From Shimia sagamensis (GTDB taxonomy: Bacteria > Pseudomonadota > Alphaproteobacteria > Rhodobacterales > Rhodobacteraceae): a DNA stretch of 64,000 bases. Both the position numbers and the translations under genes were made by a program. Below are positions 47,025 through 53,258 of this stretch, in pieces. The stretch is from contig NZ_FXTY01000002.1 of assembly GCF_900182745.1 (NCBI RefSeq), positions 1 through 64,000 on the forward strand, in the 5' to 3' direction. The notes under the pieces were generated by a model. It was not told the origin of the DNA. It saw only the letters and a program-made list of their open reading frames with translations, and made no database searches. Position 1 is the first letter of the stretch. Every line of letters begins with the position of its first letter.

Positions 47025-47441
47025 TTACACCATCACAGCGCGGATTTTATCTGCCAGTTCCTTGAGCACAGCAAAGTCCGCCATGGTGCCCGGCGGGCGC
47101 AACTTCACGCCATCATGGCGCGGCAACACGTGGTAATGCAGGTGAAAAACTTCCTGTCCGCCAGCTGCTTCGTTGAACTGCTGTACTGTCACGCCGTCAG
47201 CGCCAAATGCCTGCATAACCGCATGTCCCATTTTCTGAACCGTCTTCAGACACGCGGTCAGCTGTTCCGGCGTCGCGTCCAGCATATTACGGCATTGCGT
47301 CTTGGGAATGATCAGACAATGGCCATCCGCGCGAGGCATGATGTCCATAAATACGTAGGTGTCTTCATCCTCATAGAGCTTCTCGCTCGGGATCTCGCCC
47401 CGCAGGATTTTTGCGAAAATATTGTCGGTGTCATACGCCAC
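47025..47441 (-). CDS. HIT-family hydrolase
   Basis: A 138-residue histidine-triad protein. The triad reads His-Leu-His-Tyr-His-Val-Leu-Pro-Arg (HxHxHxx), and the N-terminal Phe-Ala-Lys-Ile-Leu-Arg-Gly-Glu-Ile-Pro motif is the Hint/HinT branch, nucleoside phosphoramidases. It lies 76 bases after acuI on the same strand and 83 bases before the aminotransferase. Confidence 0.92.
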   Translation of the reverse strand: MAYDTDNIFAKILRGEIPSEKLYEDEDTYVFMDIMPRADGHCLIIPKTQCRNMLDATPEQLTACLKTVQKMGHAVMQAFGADGVTVQQFNEAAGGQEVFHLHYHVLPRHDGVKLRPPGTMADFAVLKELADKIRAVMV

Positions 47442-47517
47442 GGCGGATTAGCTCCTTTAGACATGCAACAGGCGGGCAAGTTGCCTCACCCGCCTGTTTC
47501 ACCGTGTTTTCGCTCTC

Positions 47518-48510
47518 TTAAGCGTTCACGTCAACCACAACGCGCCCCTGGACTTGGCCTTGTAGGATGTCTGCTCCCAATTGCGGCAGATCAGAAAGCG
47601 TGGCTGGTTTCACCATAGCTTCCAGCTTGTCCATCGGCAGGTCTTTGGCAATCCGCTGCCATGCGCGCAGACGGTTGTCATAGGGTTGCATCACGGAATC
47701 GATGCCCAAGAGGTTCACACCACGCAGCAGGAACGGGATCACGGTGGCTGGCAACGCAGCACCTCCAGCCAGACCTACCGCAGCAACGGAACCACCATAT
47801 TTCATCTGCCCCAGAACACGCGCCAGCATCGCGCCGCCAACCGCATCAACGCACCCTGCCCAGTTTTCGCTTTCCAGCGGGCGTTTGACCGTCTCGTTGA
47901 GCTCTTCACGCGCCACAATCTGCGTCGCGCCGAGCGATTTCAGGTAGTCCCCGCTCTCCGGCCGTCCGGTTACACCGGCCACTTCGTAGCCAAGGTTTGC
48001 CAGGATTGCGACCGCCACCGAACCCACACCACCAGCAGCACCGGTCACCAGCACAGGCCCGTTGCCGGGCTTCAATCCATGATCTTCCAACGCCATCACT
48101 GACAGCATCGACGTAAATCCAGCAGTGCCAACAGCCATTGCCTGCTGCGGTGTCAGGCCCTCAGGCAATGGCACCAGCCAATCGGCCTTTACCCGTGCCT
48201 TCTGGCCATATCCGCCCCAATGTGCTTCCCCCACACGCCAGCCAGTCAGCACAACCTTGTCGCCCGGCTTGTACCGGTCATCGTCAGACGCCTCGACCGT
48301 GCCGGCAAAATCGATGCCCGGGATATGTGGGTATTTGCGCACAAGCCCGCCGCCTTTGGCGGACAGGCACAATCCGTCTTTGTAGTTCACCGTAGAGTAT
48401 TCCACCGCCACAGTGACCTCAGCGTTGGGCAGATCGTCCAGCGTCAAATCTTTAATTGACGCGCTTGCCAGACCGTCGTTGTTTTGGTCCATCACCAGTG
48501 CTTTGAACAT
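47518..48510 (-). CDS. acuI: Acrylyl-CoA reductase (NADPH) AcuI
   Basis: A 330-residue medium-chain dehydrogenase of the YhdH/AcuI group. Tyr-Ser-x-Val-Asn-Tyr-Lys-Asp-Gly-Leu, His-Ile-Pro-Gly-Ile-Asp-Phe-Ala-Gly-Thr-Val, and Val-Thr-Gly-Ala-Ala-Gly-Gly-Val-Gly-Ser (NADPH-binding) are seen; zinc ligands are absent, as expected. It reduces acryloyl-CoA to propionyl-CoA, which removes toxic acrylate made from DMSP. It follows dmdA on the same strand, as in Ruegeria pomeroyi, with an 88-base gap that contains dispersed motif C. Confidence 0.92.
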   Translation of the reverse strand: MFKALVMDQNNDGLASASIKDLTLDDLPNAEVTVAVEYSTVNYKDGLCLSAKGGGLVRKYPHIPGIDFAGTVEASDDDRYKPGDKVVLTGWRVGEAHWGGYGQKARVKADWLVPLPEGLTPQQAMAVGTAGFTSMLSVMALEDHGLKPGNGPVLVTGAAGGVGSVAVAILANLGYEVAGVTGRPESGDYLKSLGATQIVAREELNETVKRPLESENWAGCVDAVGGAMLARVLGQMKYGGSVAAVGLAGGAALPATVIPFLLRGVNLLGIDSVMQPYDNRLRAWQRIAKDLPMDKLEAMVKPATLSDLPQLGADILQGQVQGRVVVDVNA

Positions 48511-48557
48511 CTCATCTCTCCTCTCGCGCCAGGCTGCCGCCCAGCATTCGCATTCCC

Positions 48558-48578
48558 AAAATATCCTCGCCGAAGGCT
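48558..48578 (+). repeat. Dispersed intergenic motif C, copy 2 (dmdA-acuI gap)
   Basis: AAAATATCCTCGCCGAAGGC; differs from the copy at 20142 at one base. Both copies are in short gaps between genes of one pathway. Confidence 0.65.
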
Positions 48579-48598
48579 ACCGCCCTCAACCGCATTCG

Positions 48599-49702
48599 CT
48601 ATTGCCAAAAGGCTTCATAGACCGTGGCAGGCCGCACGCCTTCAGGCGTCACCACATCCAGCTCTGACCCCGATTTCCAATGTGTCATCCGCACCATGCC
48701 TATCGCCACATTGGTGTTGAAATCCGGTGACCAGGCTGCGCTACTGATGTTGCCCACATGGTCTTCGCCATCCATAATCGGCCACAGCTGGTCGCAGGGC
48801 GGCACTGTGCCGCCGTGAATTTCTACAGGGCGAATCTGCCGTACAGGTCCTTCTTGAGCGACGCGCAAAAGTGCATCCCGACCAACGCAGCCTATGGCCG
48901 TGTTCGTATTGCAAAACCGGCCCAGTCCGCACTCGTGAGGCGTGTTGTCGTCAGTCATGTCATTGCCATAGCTCAACAACCCTCCCTCGATGCGCTCGAT
49001 CAGGTTTGGACAGCCTGCGTGAACATCCAAATCTTTGCCTGCCTCCATCAGCACGTTCCAAAGCGGCATGCCGAGGTCGCCGCCCTCCACATAGATTTCG
49101 AACCCGCCTTGCTTGGAGTATCCAGACCGCGCCACAACAAGACTACGTCCCTGAAATTCAAACCAACCAAATCGGAAAAACCGGATATCGCGTACTTGCT
49201 CGCCAAACACGCGTACCATCAACTCATCAGATTTCGGGCCCTGCACCGCCAAAGGGCTCACATCAGGTTCATCCACCAACACATCCAGTCGATAGCCGTA
49301 GGCAATGCCCTTGACCCACAACAGCAAATCACTGTCAGCGATCGAAATCCACCACCGGTCTTCGGCCAATTTCACCGCAACCGGATCGTTCAACATACCG
49401 CCCGTTTCATCGACAATGGGCACGTAGTAACACTGTCCTGGTAACATACCGCGCAGGTCTCGAGGCGTGAGCATCTGCATCAGCTTGCTGGCATCCGGCC
49501 CGCGCACCTCAACCTGACGCTCCACGGACACATCCCAGATCTGCACTGCCCTTTTTAGGTGATGGTAGTCCTCTTCGACGGACCGAAACACTGTTGGCAA
49601 AAGCATTCGGTTATAAACCGTGTAACCTTTTACGCCTGCGGCTTCGACGCCGGCTGAAAACGGAGTTCGCCGAACCCGCCGCGAGGTAGAAATTACAGCC
49701 AT
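48599..49702 (-). CDS. dmdA: Dimethylsulfoniopropionate demethylase DmdA
   Basis: A 367-residue member of the GcvT fold. DmdA moves a methyl group from DMSP to tetrahydrofolate, giving methylmercaptopropionate. N-terminal Arg-Thr-Pro-Phe-Ser-x-Gly-Val-Glu, Lys-Gly-Tyr-Thr-Val-Tyr-Asn, Val-Trp/Ile-Trp-Asp-Val, Met-Leu-Thr-Pro-Arg-Asp, Cys-Tyr-Tyr-Val-Pro, Leu-Asn-Asp-Pro-Val-Ala, and the Gly-Cys-Pro-Asn-x-Ile-Glu-Arg-Ile-Glu motif fit DmdA rather than aminomethyltransferase. The acuI gene downstream supports this strongly. It overlaps the DinB-like gene by 10 bases, so it is translationally linked to that unusual neighbour. Confidence 0.93.
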   Translation of the reverse strand: MAVISTSRRVRRTPFSAGVEAAGVKGYTVYNRMLLPTVFRSVEEDYHHLKRAVQIWDVSVERQVEVRGPDASKLMQMLTPRDLRGMLPGQCYYVPIVDETGGMLNDPVAVKLAEDRWWISIADSDLLLWVKGIAYGYRLDVLVDEPDVSPLAVQGPKSDELMVRVFGEQVRDIRFFRFGWFEFQGRSLVVARSGYSKQGGFEIYVEGGDLGMPLWNVLMEAGKDLDVHAGCPNLIERIEGGLLSYGNDMTDDNTPHECGLGRFCNTNTAIGCVGRDALLRVAQEGPVRQIRPVEIHGGTVPPCDQLWPIMDGEDHVGNISSAAWSPDFNTNVAIGMVRMTHWKSGSELDVVTPEGVRPATVYEAFWQ

Positions 49703-50214
49703 GATGTCTCCTCCGGCATCAATACCAAATCCGTATTGTCCGTTTTACGTCCAAACCCGGTCAGCATGGCATGCACCTGCCCGCGATGATGGGTCTGGTG
49801 ATTGAACAAACCCACGACACATTGCGCCATCGGTTTCCGCATATCTTTGTCCAGCATCTGTGCATGCCAGCTCAGATATCCACTTAAGCTCCCAACTGTA
49901 ATGCTTTCTGCCCACTGCACAATCCGATGATCCATGCGCTGGCGCTCCTGCGACCAAATCGCAAAGGTTGCGCACAGTTCACTGTGCTCCTTCGCTGGTT
50001 TGGACGGCCCATCCCCGCCGTCCAAACGACTCATCCAAAGGAAATCCCCCCAAAGGATGTGGTTGATCGTCGCCATAACCGAGCCAAAGAACGCACCACG
50101 ATCGGCCCGCAACTCCGCCTCGGTCAAGGTTTCACACGCCCCATGCATCTGCCTGTTCTGCCAGGCATTATACCGCGCCATCATCTGACAATACTCGGGC
50201 GTGATCATCGACAT
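49693..50214 (-). CDS. DinB-family protein
   Basis: A 173-residue four-helix protein of the DinB/YfiT group. A putative metal triad is visible: His in Thr-Ile-Asn-His-Ile-Leu-Trp, and two in Asn-His-Gln-Thr-His-His-Arg-Gly-Gln-Val-His. Members include damage-inducible proteins and thiol-dependent transferases such as bacillithiol or mycothiol S-transferases. The 10-base overlap with dmdA suggests a role in DMSP metabolism, perhaps handling methanethiol or acrylate. That is inference. Confidence 0.8.
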   Translation of the reverse strand: MSMITPEYCQMMARYNAWQNRQMHGACETLTEAELRADRGAFFGSVMATINHILWGDFLWMSRLDGGDGPSKPAKEHSELCATFAIWSQERQRMDHRIVQWAESITVGSLSGYLSWHAQMLDKDMRKPMAQCVVGLFNHQTHHRGQVHAMLTGFGRKTDNTDLVLMPEETSWL

Positions 50215-50220
50215 GGCCGC

Positions 50221-50913
50221 TTACCGTGGCCCGTGCCAGTCGATCTGACAAATTTCAGCGGAGCGTCCGTCAAAATCCCACACCCGGCCAAAGGCCCGCA
50301 CACGACCCTTGGAGGCCGTCGCCACTGTGATGTCCGGCCCCATCCAGTATTTGGTGTTTTTGATCACGATCTCTTCGTCTTTGTCCTTGCCCTCGACTGG
50401 ATAAACCACACCTTCAATCTTGCGACCCACGGTAATGTGACGGGTTTTGCCGTCCTCGGAGGTTTCATACCCCACCGGCTGACGCTCCACGCCAATGATC
50501 TCGCCCACCAAAACCTTGAACAGACCTGTGGTGCCTTTTGCCTTGCCGCTGAAGATATCGATCAGTGCATTATAGGCCTCAGGGCTGGCGCGATCATCAA
50601 TGAACAGCGCCACTTTCCAGTTGCCGCGGCTCATCATGCCCGGAATTTCGATCAGCAGGCCAATGTTCAGACCGGACAGGTCGACGTCGCCATACTGACC
50701 TTCATCAATGCGCACGCCTCCCCATGTCTGACAGTGGCCTTCGGTTGGCGGATGCAGGCCGAGGCTGACCACACAGGGGCAGAACACTGTACAGTTACAG
50801 TTGAGGATCAACTCGCCTTTGATGGTCCAAGGAATGGTGCCCAACCCTGATTTTGCCGCCTCCGGGTGGCGATTGTCGATCTTGGCCGGTGCCGCGATGT
50901 TGTCCGATGCCAT
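50221..50913 (-). CDS. DUF1326-domain protein
   Basis: A 230-residue soluble protein. The Asn-Cys-Asn-Cys motif after Glu-Leu-Ile-Leu (Cys-Asn-Cys-x-x-Phe-Cys-Pro-Cys) and Trp-Gly-Gly-Val-Arg-Ile are DUF1326 marks; the clustered cysteines suggest a metal or redox role. The family often sits beside DUF2182, as here (24 bases apart). Its biochemical function is unknown. DinB follows after six bases. Confidence 0.85.
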   Translation of the reverse strand: MASDNIAAPAKIDNRHPEAAKSGLGTIPWTIKGELILNCNCTVFCPCVVSLGLHPPTEGHCQTWGGVRIDEGQYGDVDLSGLNIGLLIEIPGMMSRGNWKVALFIDDRASPEAYNALIDIFSGKAKGTTGLFKVLVGEIIGVERQPVGYETSEDGKTRHITVGRKIEGVVYPVEGKDKDEEIVIKNTKYWMGPDITVATASKGRVRAFGRVWDFDGRSAEICQIDWHGPR

Positions 50914-50937
50914 GGTGTGTTCCTCCTTAAGTGTTCG

Positions 50938-51708
50938 TCACAGGGCATACGCCGCCATAAAGGCCGCACTACACAACAGCACGAGCCCCAGCGGTTTTGT
51001 CACCCAACGCCCGATATCGGGCAGTTTCTCAAAAATCATGATCAGCGTGGCCAGCCCCATAAAGGCGATGTTCATCACGCCGCCCACAAAAGCCAAAAGC
51101 ATCAACGCCCAGCAGCAGCCCAGACAGGTCAGCCCGAGACGCAACCCGTTTCTCCACGGCCCTTCGTCCCAATGCTGCATAAAAAACGTCATCGGCATGC
51201 GGCACTTGGACAGGCAGGCCTCTTTCATCGGGGAGAACTGATACAGCCCCGCCACCACCAAAAGAAACGCAGAGAAAAAGCCGGAGCGGCTGTCACCCAA
51301 GGCGCCCAGTAGCCCCACTTGAAACAACACCATCTGAAGCGCTGCGGCCAGTATGGAAAACCCGATCCACACCGCGAGGTAGCCGCTGACCAGCGCGGAA
51401 AACTTCGCGCCCGGCGCCTGTCGCGCCAGATCATCATAGGTGGCAAAGGCGGGCAAGGCCGTGGGCGCCATCATTGCCGCGCTCATCACAACCCACATCA
51501 AAAGCACGCGCGCAAAGCCACTCGCGTCTGGTGTGATGGTGCACAGCGAAACCCAAAAGTCCGCGCCGTAGATCGCATTCAGCTCCCGCATCTCCGCCGG
51601 AATGGCCATCAAAAACAGAATGGTCCATGCAGCCAAGATGCCACAAAACAGCGCCAGCCAATGGAACCCCGACATAGAACGAATGCGATCGGCGATCATC
51701 GTCGACAT
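50938..51708 (-). CDS. DUF2182-domain integral membrane protein
   Basis: A 256-residue membrane protein with about seven hydrophobic segments. The family motifs are Met-Trp-Val-Val-Met-Ser-Ala-Ala-Met-Met-Ala-Pro, Tyr-Gln-Phe-Ser-Pro-Met-Lys-x-x-Cys-Leu-x-x-Cys, and Gly-Leu-Thr-Cys-Leu-Gly-Cys-Cys-Trp. The conserved Met and Cys residues suggest copper or another soft metal. It is the first gene of the run to acuI. Met 51708 was chosen; an alternative is Met 51699. It is divergent from the GntR-type gene across 81 bases filled by operator-like repeats. Confidence 0.85.
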   Translation of the reverse strand: MSTMIADRIRSMSGFHWLALFCGILAAWTILFLMAIPAEMRELNAIYGADFWVSLCTITPDASGFARVLLMWVVMSAAMMAPTALPAFATYDDLARQAPGAKFSALVSGYLAVWIGFSILAAALQMVLFQVGLLGALGDSRSGFFSAFLLVVAGLYQFSPMKEACLSKCRMPMTFFMQHWDEGPWRNGLRLGLTCLGCCWALMLLAFVGGVMNIAFMGLATLIMIFEKLPDIGRWVTKPLGLVLLCSAAFMAAYAL

Positions 51709-51743
51709 TCCTCCTCTTGCCACGACTCACAACTTGCTGTCTA

Positions 51744-51791
51744 AAATGTCAGACAATTAAACGCGCAGCAAACACTAAATGTCAGACAATT
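51744..51791. promoter_or_regulatory. Paired GntR/FadR-type operator repeats
   Basis: AAATGTCAGACAATT occurs at 51744-51758 and again at 51777-51791, exactly 33 bases (about three helical turns) apart. Each copy holds the inverted repeat TGTC-A-GACA, which is the TnGTCnnACnA-like pattern seen in FadR-subfamily operators. The second copy covers the TTG start codon of the regulator gene. This arrangement predicts autorepression and control of the divergent DUF2182-to-acuI run. Confidence 0.75.
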
Positions 51792-52518
51792 GAAAATAGA
51801 CCCCAAAAACAAAGCCGACCTTTCGGCGCAAATCGCCAAAGCCATCCGCGATGCGATCATTTCCGGTGACATGAACGTCGACGAACGCCTGCCATCTGAA
51901 TCGGAGTTGGCAGATCAATTTGAGGTGTCGCGTTCCACAGTACGCGAGGCGCTCAAGCGTTTGGCGGCACAAAACTTGATCCGCACCCAACGCGGCGCAA
52001 CTGGCGGCGCCTTTGTGCGGCGCCTGTCGTATGACGAGGCCTACGCGCAACATATCACCACCAGCACGCTCTTGCTGTCGATGAATGCGGTGGACTTTGA
52101 AACTGCCTGTGAAGCCCGCTTTGCTTTGGAACGCGCCTGTGCACCCTTGTCGTCCGCCCGGCGGACCCCAGATCATCTCGCCACCATGCGGGCTGAAATT
52201 CACCGCCAAGCCCAGCCAGGTCTCTCGGACGAGCGCTTCTGTGACAGTGACGTGGCCTTCCACCGTGCATTGGTTGATGGCGCAGGCAATCCGGTGCTGT
52301 CTTATCAGCTCGCAGGCGCCGTGGAGGCCATGCAGCCCCTGATGAACATGATCACCTTCACGCAGCGCAACCGCGACGTGATCATCGGCCTGCACACCCG
52401 CATTGCTGACGCGCTGGAAATGCAAAACAGCGCCGATGCGGACACTGCCTTGGCGGAGCTAACAGCCTACACGCTCACATTGGGCGAAGAGGCCATGGAG
52501 GCCCGCGCACGGCGATAA
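51790..52518 (+). CDS. FadR/GntR-family transcriptional regulator
   Basis: A 242-residue regulator with an N-terminal GntR winged helix (Leu-Pro-Ser-Glu-Ser-Glu-Leu-Ala-x-x-Phe-x-Val-Ser-Arg-Ser-Thr-Val-Arg-Glu-Ala-Leu) and a C-terminal FCD domain with Asp-Val-Ala-Phe-His and Leu-His-Thr-Arg-Ile, candidate metal and effector ligands. TTG at 51790 is the only possible start in this frame before an upstream stop, and there is no ribosome site ahead of it. A GntR gene next to dmdA is known in Ruegeria pomeroyi; here three genes lie between. Its ligand may be acrylate or a DMSP product; unproven. Confidence 0.88.
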   Translation: MKIDPKNKADLSAQIAKAIRDAIISGDMNVDERLPSESELADQFEVSRSTVREALKRLAAQNLIRTQRGATGGAFVRRLSYDEAYAQHITTSTLLLSMNAVDFETACEARFALERACAPLSSARRTPDHLATMRAEIHRQAQPGLSDERFCDSDVAFHRALVDGAGNPVLSYQLAGAVEAMQPLMNMITFTQRNRDVIIGLHTRIADALEMQNSADADTALAELTAYTLTLGEEAMEARARR

Positions 52519-52604
52519 AAGCCAACAATCGCCTTGCACCTCCTGCGCAATCTGCGTTTTCTCCGCGCAAACCGGCCTTAAGAGCCGTGCAACAGGAGAC
52601 TCAC

Positions 52605-53258
52605 ATGCGCCCCACTGATCATCTGCGCACCCTTGCGGGTGACGACTGGATTGCTGCGACCACGCATCCGTTTTGCACCGAGCTGGCGGAGGGCACCCTG
52701 CCGTTAAGCAAAATGCGTTGGTATCTGGCGCAAGATTACCAATTTGTCGGCAACTTCGTGCGTCTGCTCGCAAGCGCCATCGCGCACGCGCCGACATTGG
52801 CCGACTCAGTCCCAGCAGCACAGTTCCTCGCTTTGGTCACCGGCCCGGAAAACACCTACTTCCTGCGCTCCTTTGAGGCGCTCGACATGAGTGCGGCAGA
52901 GCAAAACGCGCCACCTGCCCCGCCCACCGAAGGGTTCAACGCCCTTATGGCTGAAGCCGCCGCCTCCGGTCGCTATGAATTGATGCTGGCAGTGCTGGTT
53001 GTCGCGGAATGGGTCTATCTGAGCTGGGCCACCCCCGTGAACCCACCCAAAGACGACCTGCCGTTCTATTTTGCCGAATGGATCACCCTGCACGCGGGGG
53101 ACGGCTTTGAAGGCGTGGTTGCGTATCTGCGCGGTCAGCTGGATGCTGTTTGGCCAACTTTAAGGGCAGATGCCCAAGGCGAGGTTGAGGCTCTCTTCTT
53201 GCGAGCCGTGAAGTTGGAACGTGATTTCTGGGACGCTTCATACGCAGATCATGCCTAA
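52605..53258 (+). CDS. TenA-family protein (TenA_E-like)
   Basis: A 217-residue all-helical protein of the TenA/PqqC superfamily. Pro-Phe-Cys-Thr-Glu-Leu, Met-Arg-Trp-Tyr-Leu-Ala-Gln-Asp-Tyr, and Tyr-Phe-Ala-Glu-Trp-Ile match. Thiaminase II enzymes use a cysteine in a Cys-Tyr-Trp motif; here that site reads Ala-Glu-Trp (Val-Val-Ala-Glu-Trp-Val-Tyr), so this is the glutamate (TenA_E) class, whose members salvage thiamine precursors or have other roles. CAGGAGAC precedes ATG 52605. It is 87 bases after the GntR gene. Confidence 0.8.
   Translation: MRPTDHLRTLAGDDWIAATTHPFCTELAEGTLPLSKMRWYLAQDYQFVGNFVRLLASAIAHAPTLADSVPAAQFLALVTGPENTYFLRSFEALDMSAAEQNAPPAPPTEGFNALMAEAAASGRYELMLAVLVVAEWVYLSWATPVNPPKDDLPFYFAEWITLHAGDGFEGVVAYLRGQLDAVWPTLRADAQGEVEALFLRAVKLERDFWDASYADHA

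Follow-up and report, generated by a model that had tools for sequence, protein, structure and literature searches.

A run of five genes in Shimia sagamensis (Rhodobacteraceae), DUF2182-DUF1326-DinB-dmdA-acuI, ends in the demethylase gene for dimethylsulfoniopropionate (DMSP) and an acrylyl-CoA reductase family gene, and lies divergent to a gene for a GntR-type regulator. It is found in the window analysed here, which comprises the first 64,000 nucleotides (forward strand) of contig NZ_FXTY01000002.1, assembly GCF_900182745.1. The run is real and conserved, and is very probably regulated as a unit. Its favoured interpretation, with a probability of about 0.4, is an acrylate-responsive protection operon in which the genes upstream of dmdA would carry soft-metal and thiol functions; these biochemical roles are proposed from sequence. 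An earlier sequence-only reading had suggested that the five genes are expressed together under the regulator, and that the upstream genes handle methanethiol, a soft metal or a thiol stress that comes with DMSP use.

The five genes share one strand and, as called from open reading frames (ORFs), are separated by 24, 6, -10 and 88 bases. This arrangement and the divergent GntR gene, both part of the sequence-only reading, are borne out by the ORF and family calls (Table 1). In Pfam, the DUF2182 product matches PF09948 (PpoB2, 'copper chaperone') at 205 bits against a cut-off of 28.7, the DUF1326 product PF07040 at 175 bits (cut-off 25) and the DinB product PF05163 at 80 bits (cut-off 23). The dmdA product passes the NCBIfam equivalog for DMSP demethylase (683 bits against 410) and has as its best PDB match 3tfh (E 1.4e-107), which is annotated there as GcvT-like. 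By equivalog the gene is assigned to DmdA, with tetrahydrofolate-dependent demethylation as the predicted reaction. AcuI passes the NCBIfam model for the acrylyl-CoA reductase family (454.6 bits against 297) and falls narrowly below its equivalog NF051456 (434.7 bits, cut-off 440); acuI is therefore used as a label, and the gene is filed at family level only. Between 50214 and 49702, where a promoter and terminator would have spoken against linked expression, a promoter scan found no promoter-like site. The sole terminator-like match there, at 49830-49814, is weak and internal to the DinB gene. Over the region 47400-51900, matches are about as frequent as in shuffled sequence, at 3 against 2.4 for promoters and 5 against 4.6 for terminators.

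Conservation was followed in 149 genomes of the family, one per genus. A dmdA gene above cut-off is present in 64 of these, at 70 places; PpoB2 is found in 82 of the genomes, DUF1326 in 79 and proteins like the DinB of the window in 76. Neighbourhoods were read from stretches around 69 dmdA places plus the window, and the neighbours were scored, at author-set thresholds, with profiles that had been derived from the same family loci. The DUF2182-DUF1326 pair lies by dmdA at 48 of the 70 loci, and acuI is within 5 kb of dmdA on the same strand at 46. The pair is present at 42 of the 46 loci with acuI nearby and at 6 of the 24 without. DinB occurs at 30 of the 70, mostly between DUF1326 and dmdA and twice between dmdA and acuI. 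In a second sample, the best 80 of 582 relatives from a DUF1326 search of a collection of named genomes, DUF2182 stands directly upstream of DUF1326 in all 80 (in L247 a DinB label falls between them). Either dmdA or acuI, or both, are present in 74 of the 80, and the remaining six stretches end no more than 1.7 kb from DUF1326. Shimia accounts for four of the six named loci (L172-L177) in which DUF1326 is closest. The gene order that was expected in relatives is thus found in both samples, and its absence is disproved.

The block also moves as a unit, since 13 of 47 loci with the pair and dmdA (window excluded) keep it while sharing none of 21 common flanking families. The 21 families were listed by hand from clusters, and in 3 of the 13 loci the stretch is cut by a contig end and spans no more than about 10 kb.

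The regulator contains a GntR helix-turn-helix domain (71 bits) and an FCD domain (66 bits), each above its cut-off. It had been described as FadR/GntR; the GntR assignment with an FCD-type domain stands, but the protein is not FadR itself, as it scores 27.5 bits against a cut-off of 189 for the FadR equivalog NF003444.

Control of the operon by this divergent gene is strongly supported by a predicted operator that tracks the regulator. The palindrome TGTCNGACA is found in 58 of 64 GntR-DUF2182 divergent regions (63 named loci and the window), and mononucleotide shuffles give a mean of 0.075 per 64. One exact copy is present in 44 of the regions, two in 14 and none in 6; the consensus is AWTGTCWGACAWT. 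The two predicted operators of the window are 33 bp apart, and two exact copies at this spacing are found in 13 of the 16 genus genomes searched. A matrix scan of the family sample, in which 100 of 101 stretches were scored, gave at least 10 bits before DUF2182 (or dmdA) at 49 of 51 loci with GntR nearby, as against 1 of 49 without; the 10-bit threshold was author-set, and the scores were either at least 17.2 or at most 4.7. The two samples overlap, in that several of the 149 genomes share their assembly with a named locus (for example L184 and G005:C8), and the operator counts of the divergent regions and the matrix scan are not fully independent. The two GntR loci that fail the scan are L072 and L006, the latter with two sites that lie before DinB, outside the scanned region. 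In the single positive without GntR nearby, genome G001, the site lies 52 bp before an unlinked dmdA, and a GntR-DUF2182-DUF1326-acuI block with an imperfect 17-bit site stands elsewhere in the genome. As sites are present at both of these separate loci, dmdA and the pair are apparently under common control in trans. Conserved order, relocation of the block and a site found almost only with the regulator together support the proposed linked expression and GntR control.

Table 1. Coordinates of the genes and predicted operators in the window
Feature	Positions	Strand	Remarks
DUF2182 / PpoB2 integral membrane protein	50938..51708	-	256 amino acids, ATG start; ORF tool lists GTG at 51723
DUF1326 protein	50221..50913	-	230 amino acids
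DinB / S-transferase-like protein	49693..50214	-	173 amino acids
dmdA, DMSP demethylase	48599..49702	-	NF009133 equivalog
acuI, acrylyl-CoA reductase family	47518..48510	-	TIGR02823
GntR/FCD transcriptional regulator, divergent	51790..52518	+	TTG start
Predicted GntR operator 1	51745..51757	.	AATGTCAGACAAT; core TGTCAGACA 51747-51755
Predicted GntR operator 2	51778..51790	.	AATGTCAGACAAT; core 51780-51788; reaches GntR start codon

The strict site is present at only four places in the genome of the window: the two described, one inside an ORF and one 61 bp upstream of a GMC oxidoreductase gene (choline-dehydrogenase-like; L260:1501, contig C3 125835). The last is kept at 67-69 bp in 5 of 12 close genus orthologues, the genome of the window included. 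A full-score site also lies 92-94 bp upstream of a PRK08162-type acyl-CoA ligase gene in 4 of 17 genus genomes, and an acyl-CoA dehydrogenase gene carries one in two genomes only. The ligase cluster adjoins dmdA at ten loci of other genera. Its member at L039, the only one of the dmdA-adjacent cluster identified to family, belongs to the same NCBIfam family as the operator-bearing ligase and is 51% identical to it. Assignment of these ligases to DmdB was considered and rejected: both are NF006020 (acyl-CoA synthetase) and score 310 and 296 bits against 822 for the 3-(methylthio)propionyl-CoA ligase equivalog. The site is missing in 13 of the 17 ligase orthologues and in 7 of the 12 close GMC orthologues. 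Among 22 loci read around sites (20 hand-picked and the two of the window's genome), nine have the site immediately upstream of a gene start and one, L290, can be read either way; most of the rest carry it within ORFs. Single sites mean little unless conserved, because a reversed control pattern reaches 3 per genus genome. The predicted regulon points to DMSP and C3 acyl-CoA metabolism, with most orthologues outside these subgroups lacking the site.

The upstream genes are not helpers of dmdA only, as they persist in operons that have lost dmdA. In 21 of the best 80 named loci, acuI accompanies the pair and dmdA is absent from the locus. Another 31 loci (L071-L101), a hand-picked and incomplete set, have the pair and no dmdA above threshold; one of them, L074, holds sub-threshold dmdA-like pieces. 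In 17 of the 31 acuI adjoins, once divergently (L072), and at L093 the acuI label is given in one neighbour scoring and absent in the other. Eight of the 31 (L094-L101) display a stand-alone DUF1326-DUF2182 order. At L172, which has the closest DUF1326 (99%) and is the nearest Shimia relative, DUF2182-DUF1326-DinB is followed by acuI less than 100 bp after DinB, with no dmdA match at the locus. A short 3' relic of dmdA is found between DUF1326 and acuI at L226:2367-2513, and points to loss of dmdA from an operon whose neighbours were kept. The L172 and L226 records are metagenome-assembled genomes. The proposed tie of the upstream genes to DMSP use therefore holds in part: they are linked to dmdA-acuI, but they are not bound to dmdA alone.

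The reverse-order unit DUF1326-DUF2182 is widespread in a phylum sample, with varying neighbours. Among 40 loci fetched there, one of them from the window's genus, 27 have this order, 5 have DUF1326 without DUF2182 and 3 have no DUF1326 in the map. A link between the pair and acuI outside Rhodobacteraceae, first labelled in three loci of one family, was dropped, as the scores were just 31-34 bits.

The upstream proteins display conserved residues of metal-binding type. In DUF2182, M80, M85, C174, C200, C203 and C204 are invariant over 109 sequences of both gene orders, and M84 and C170 (99%) nearly so; residues are numbered from the GTG at 51723, and the alignment was made up of sequences other than the Marinomonas mediterranea protein. 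The DUF2182 structure model has a predicted local distance difference test score (pLDDT) of 88, and no PDB match was found at E<=0.001. DUF1326 carries a cysteine cluster, C39 C41 C45 C47 C61, common to both operon types. Its model bears some resemblance to the acetoacetate-decarboxylase-like fold, at a low Foldseek TM-score of 0.40. In DinB a histidine triad is conserved over 39 sequences (H52 100%, H139 94%, H143 94%); no PDB relative was found by sequence at E<=0.1. The soft-metal role suggested earlier is plausible for a member of the PpoB2 copper-chaperone family with invariant Cys and Met. A thiol-stress role would fit DinB, which belongs to a superfamily of metal-dependent thiol S-transferases and keeps three metal-type histidines.

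From these features it is hypothesized that the run represents a Rhodobacteraceae operon for protection and catabolism that responds to acrylate/DMSP. The GntR/FCD protein would bind one or two AWTGTCWGACAWT operators, and would control both its own gene and DUF2182-DUF1326-DinB-dmdA-acuI. Acrylate, or a C3 compound made from it, is the likely signal, because acrylate induces dmdA-acuI about 12-14 fold in Ruegeria pomeroyi and methylmercaptopropionate (MMPA) does not (PMC3338564). AcuI would remove acryloyl-CoA. DinB may act as an S-transferase-like, metal-dependent enzyme that joins a cell thiol to this electrophile; the eight Bacillus subtilis DinB-family proteins are metal-dependent thiol transferases with three conserved histidines (PMC5815605). 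For DUF1326 the proposal is that its C-x-C...C-x-C...C cluster takes up a soft metal, most likely Cu(I), which is then handed to the Cys/Met-rich DUF2182. PpoB2 is reported to move copper to tyrosinase (PMC2855505). Copper released by a drain of thiols to acryloyl-CoA, or by methanethiol that disturbs metal binding, would in this way be made harmless.

Several observations weigh against this interpretation. DinB is optional, with its 30 of 70 dmdA loci, and its place within the operon varies. None of the five partners is present at 17 of the 70 dmdA loci, three loci (L014, L033, L047) have GntR-dmdA(-acuI) without the pair or DinB, and L006 has DinB and no pair. Control appears to differ at GntR-free pair loci of DUF2182-first order, where the site is present in 0 of 23 in the family sample. 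PpoB2, the only member of its family found with a tested role, loads an enzyme instead of protecting the cell, and no DUF1326 member with a tested function was found in the literature. The predicted fold of DUF1326 appears to be that of an enzyme family, and the operon-type proteins conserve E34, R158, R206 and E220 and the near-invariant R210, which the other type does not. Such charged residues have no obvious use in a protein that only carries metal.

The same residues and fold suggest that operon-type DUF1326 might itself be an enzyme or ligand sensor, acting on a C3/C4 acid that arises as acrylate or DMSP is broken down, with DUF2182 as its membrane partner or carrier. The acetoacetate-decarboxylase family uses a Schiff-base lysine. 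No lysine is conserved at 85% over 120 DUF1326 proteins, and this catalytic residue is therefore without a conserved counterpart. Together with the low TM-score, and with the five-Cys cluster as the common feature of both types, this makes the enzyme or sensor role rather unlikely.

Alternatively, DUF2182-DUF1326 could serve the maturation of one particular copper enzyme, in the way that PpoB2 serves tyrosinase (PMC2855505). For organisms that use DMSP, the copper-dependent methanethiol oxidase MtoX (SBP56) would be the obvious client; it often travels with the chaperone SCO1 (PMC5739008). In one relative (L254:6144-8742), mtoX is followed in a row by a gene judged ferredoxin-like by eye and by a distant member of the PpoB2 family, which possibly replaces SCO1 as copper chaperone of methanethiol oxidase. 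DUF1326 and SBP56 co-occur over the 149 genomes (39/40/12/58, p=3e-5), a count from hand-transcribed genome lists in which some SBP56 entries are fragments and a few are weak. Among the 64 dmdA genomes, however, the association is not significant (35/18/5/6, p=0.30), and SBP56 is absent from 18 of the 53 genomes that have both dmdA and DUF1326. The genome of the window has no SBP56 match at E<=1e-20, and the ten genes named here include no copper enzyme. Copper-enzyme maturation by the pair is unlikely, as is MtoX loading in this genome; the L254 row leaves the latter idea some plausibility in other lineages.

Methanethiol binds soft metals strongly. This general chemistry, and the need for another outlet in a genome without an SBP56 match, would be consistent with genes that serve methanethiol specifically, by binding the thiol that arises downstream of DmdA or by oxidising it. 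Against this stand the loci, such as the 21 of the best 80 and L172, where the pair, and often DinB, is beside acuI with no dmdA at the locus itself. A specific methanethiol function is accordingly quite improbable. Acrylate or acryloyl-CoA is a better common factor than methanethiol, because the pair is so often found beside acuI at loci without dmdA.

That the three genes lie beside dmdA-acuI through shared chromosomal order only, with no joint task, is already disfavoured and very improbable: much of the flank (CsdL-like, cysteine-desulfurase-like; photolyase; cyclopropane (CFA) synthase; others) is conserved in the family too, but the relocated loci keep the block without it, the genes overlap or have short gaps, an operator-like site that tracks the regulator precedes the block, and DinB shifts place yet remains in the operon.

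The favoured acrylate-responsive operon may be compared with known systems. The dmdA-acuI operon of R. pomeroyi DSS-3 and other Roseobacters has the same order, and its genes are reported to be co-regulated, with acrylate and DMSP as inducers (Todd et al., 2012; PMC3338564). In the window, as in the known operon, acuI lies directly 3' of dmdA, with an 88 bp gap. The window differs in that DUF2182-DUF1326-DinB precede dmdA, three genes not mentioned in the excerpted text of PMC3338564, and in its GntR regulator, a term that does not occur in the text of the paper. The AcuR-controlled acuI system of the same paper likewise combines acuI and a DMSP gene under an acrylate-responsive regulator, a responsiveness that is predicted for the window; there, however, a TetR-type AcuR and a DMSP lyase take the place of the GntR/FCD regulator and demethylase. 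The ppoB operon of M. mediterranea (PpoB1 tyrosinase, PpoB2 copper chaperone; PMC2855505) similarly joins a PpoB2-family membrane protein to a metabolic gene. In the window there is no tyrosinase among the named genes, and DUF2182 has DUF1326 as its partner gene, with linkage to DMSP/acrylate enzymes. In the mtoX-SCO1-mauG operon (PMC5739008) a copper chaperone gene also adjoins a DMSP-pathway enzyme gene, but chaperone family and enzyme are others, and no mtoX was found in the genome of the window. DinB resembles BstA-H of the S-transferase-like superfamily in its Pfam family and three metal-type histidines (PMC5815605). No open-licence paper was found on upstream genes in the dmdA operon or on a dedicated GntR regulator of dmdA. 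The dmdA-acuI operon is thus already known, and its usual leading genes, operator and regulon were not found in print in the open-licence literature.

Other genes were seen nearby. A TenA/THI-4/PQQC-family gene lies at 52587-53258 (+), 68 bp 3' of GntR on the same strand, and scores 68.8 bits, below the thiaminase II cut-off of 130; the GntR-TenA neighbourhood recurs at L014 and L048. A BCCT-family transporter gene (L042:9850-11574; cluster c10, 18 genes in 17 loci) is often found shortly 3' of acuI and represents a candidate DMSP/betaine importer, the family being named from L042 only. A second type of dmdA-family locus (L058, L060, L062, L063, L066, L068) has flavin mononucleotide (FMN) lactate-dehydrogenase-like and thiamine pyrophosphate (TPP; acetolactate-synthase-like) genes upstream and, except at L062, also a transthyretin/hydroxyisourate hydrolase (HIUase)-like gene. 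It is without acuI, GntR or the pair, and its families were named from L063 only.

A more far-reaching proposal, speculative and held at low probability, is that operon-type DUF1326 represents a new kind of protein, an acetoacetate-decarboxylase-like barrel with a five-Cys soft-metal centre and conserved charged residues. With DUF2182 it would form a metal-based unit for detoxification or sensing of acrylate/acryloyl-CoA, which, across much of the Roseobacter group, would define the response to DMSP/acrylate.

Of interest is that 42 of the 46 sampled dmdA-acuI loci include genes upstream of dmdA that have had no assigned role in the operon. A defined operator with a small regulon makes the control of dmdA directly testable. 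DUF1326 gains a first metabolic setting, that of acrylate stress and perhaps copper. In many marine Roseobacter-type bacteria the three upstream genes share an operon with dmdA and acuI, apparently under a single dedicated regulator, and the gene set often survives where the DMSP gene is missing from the locus.

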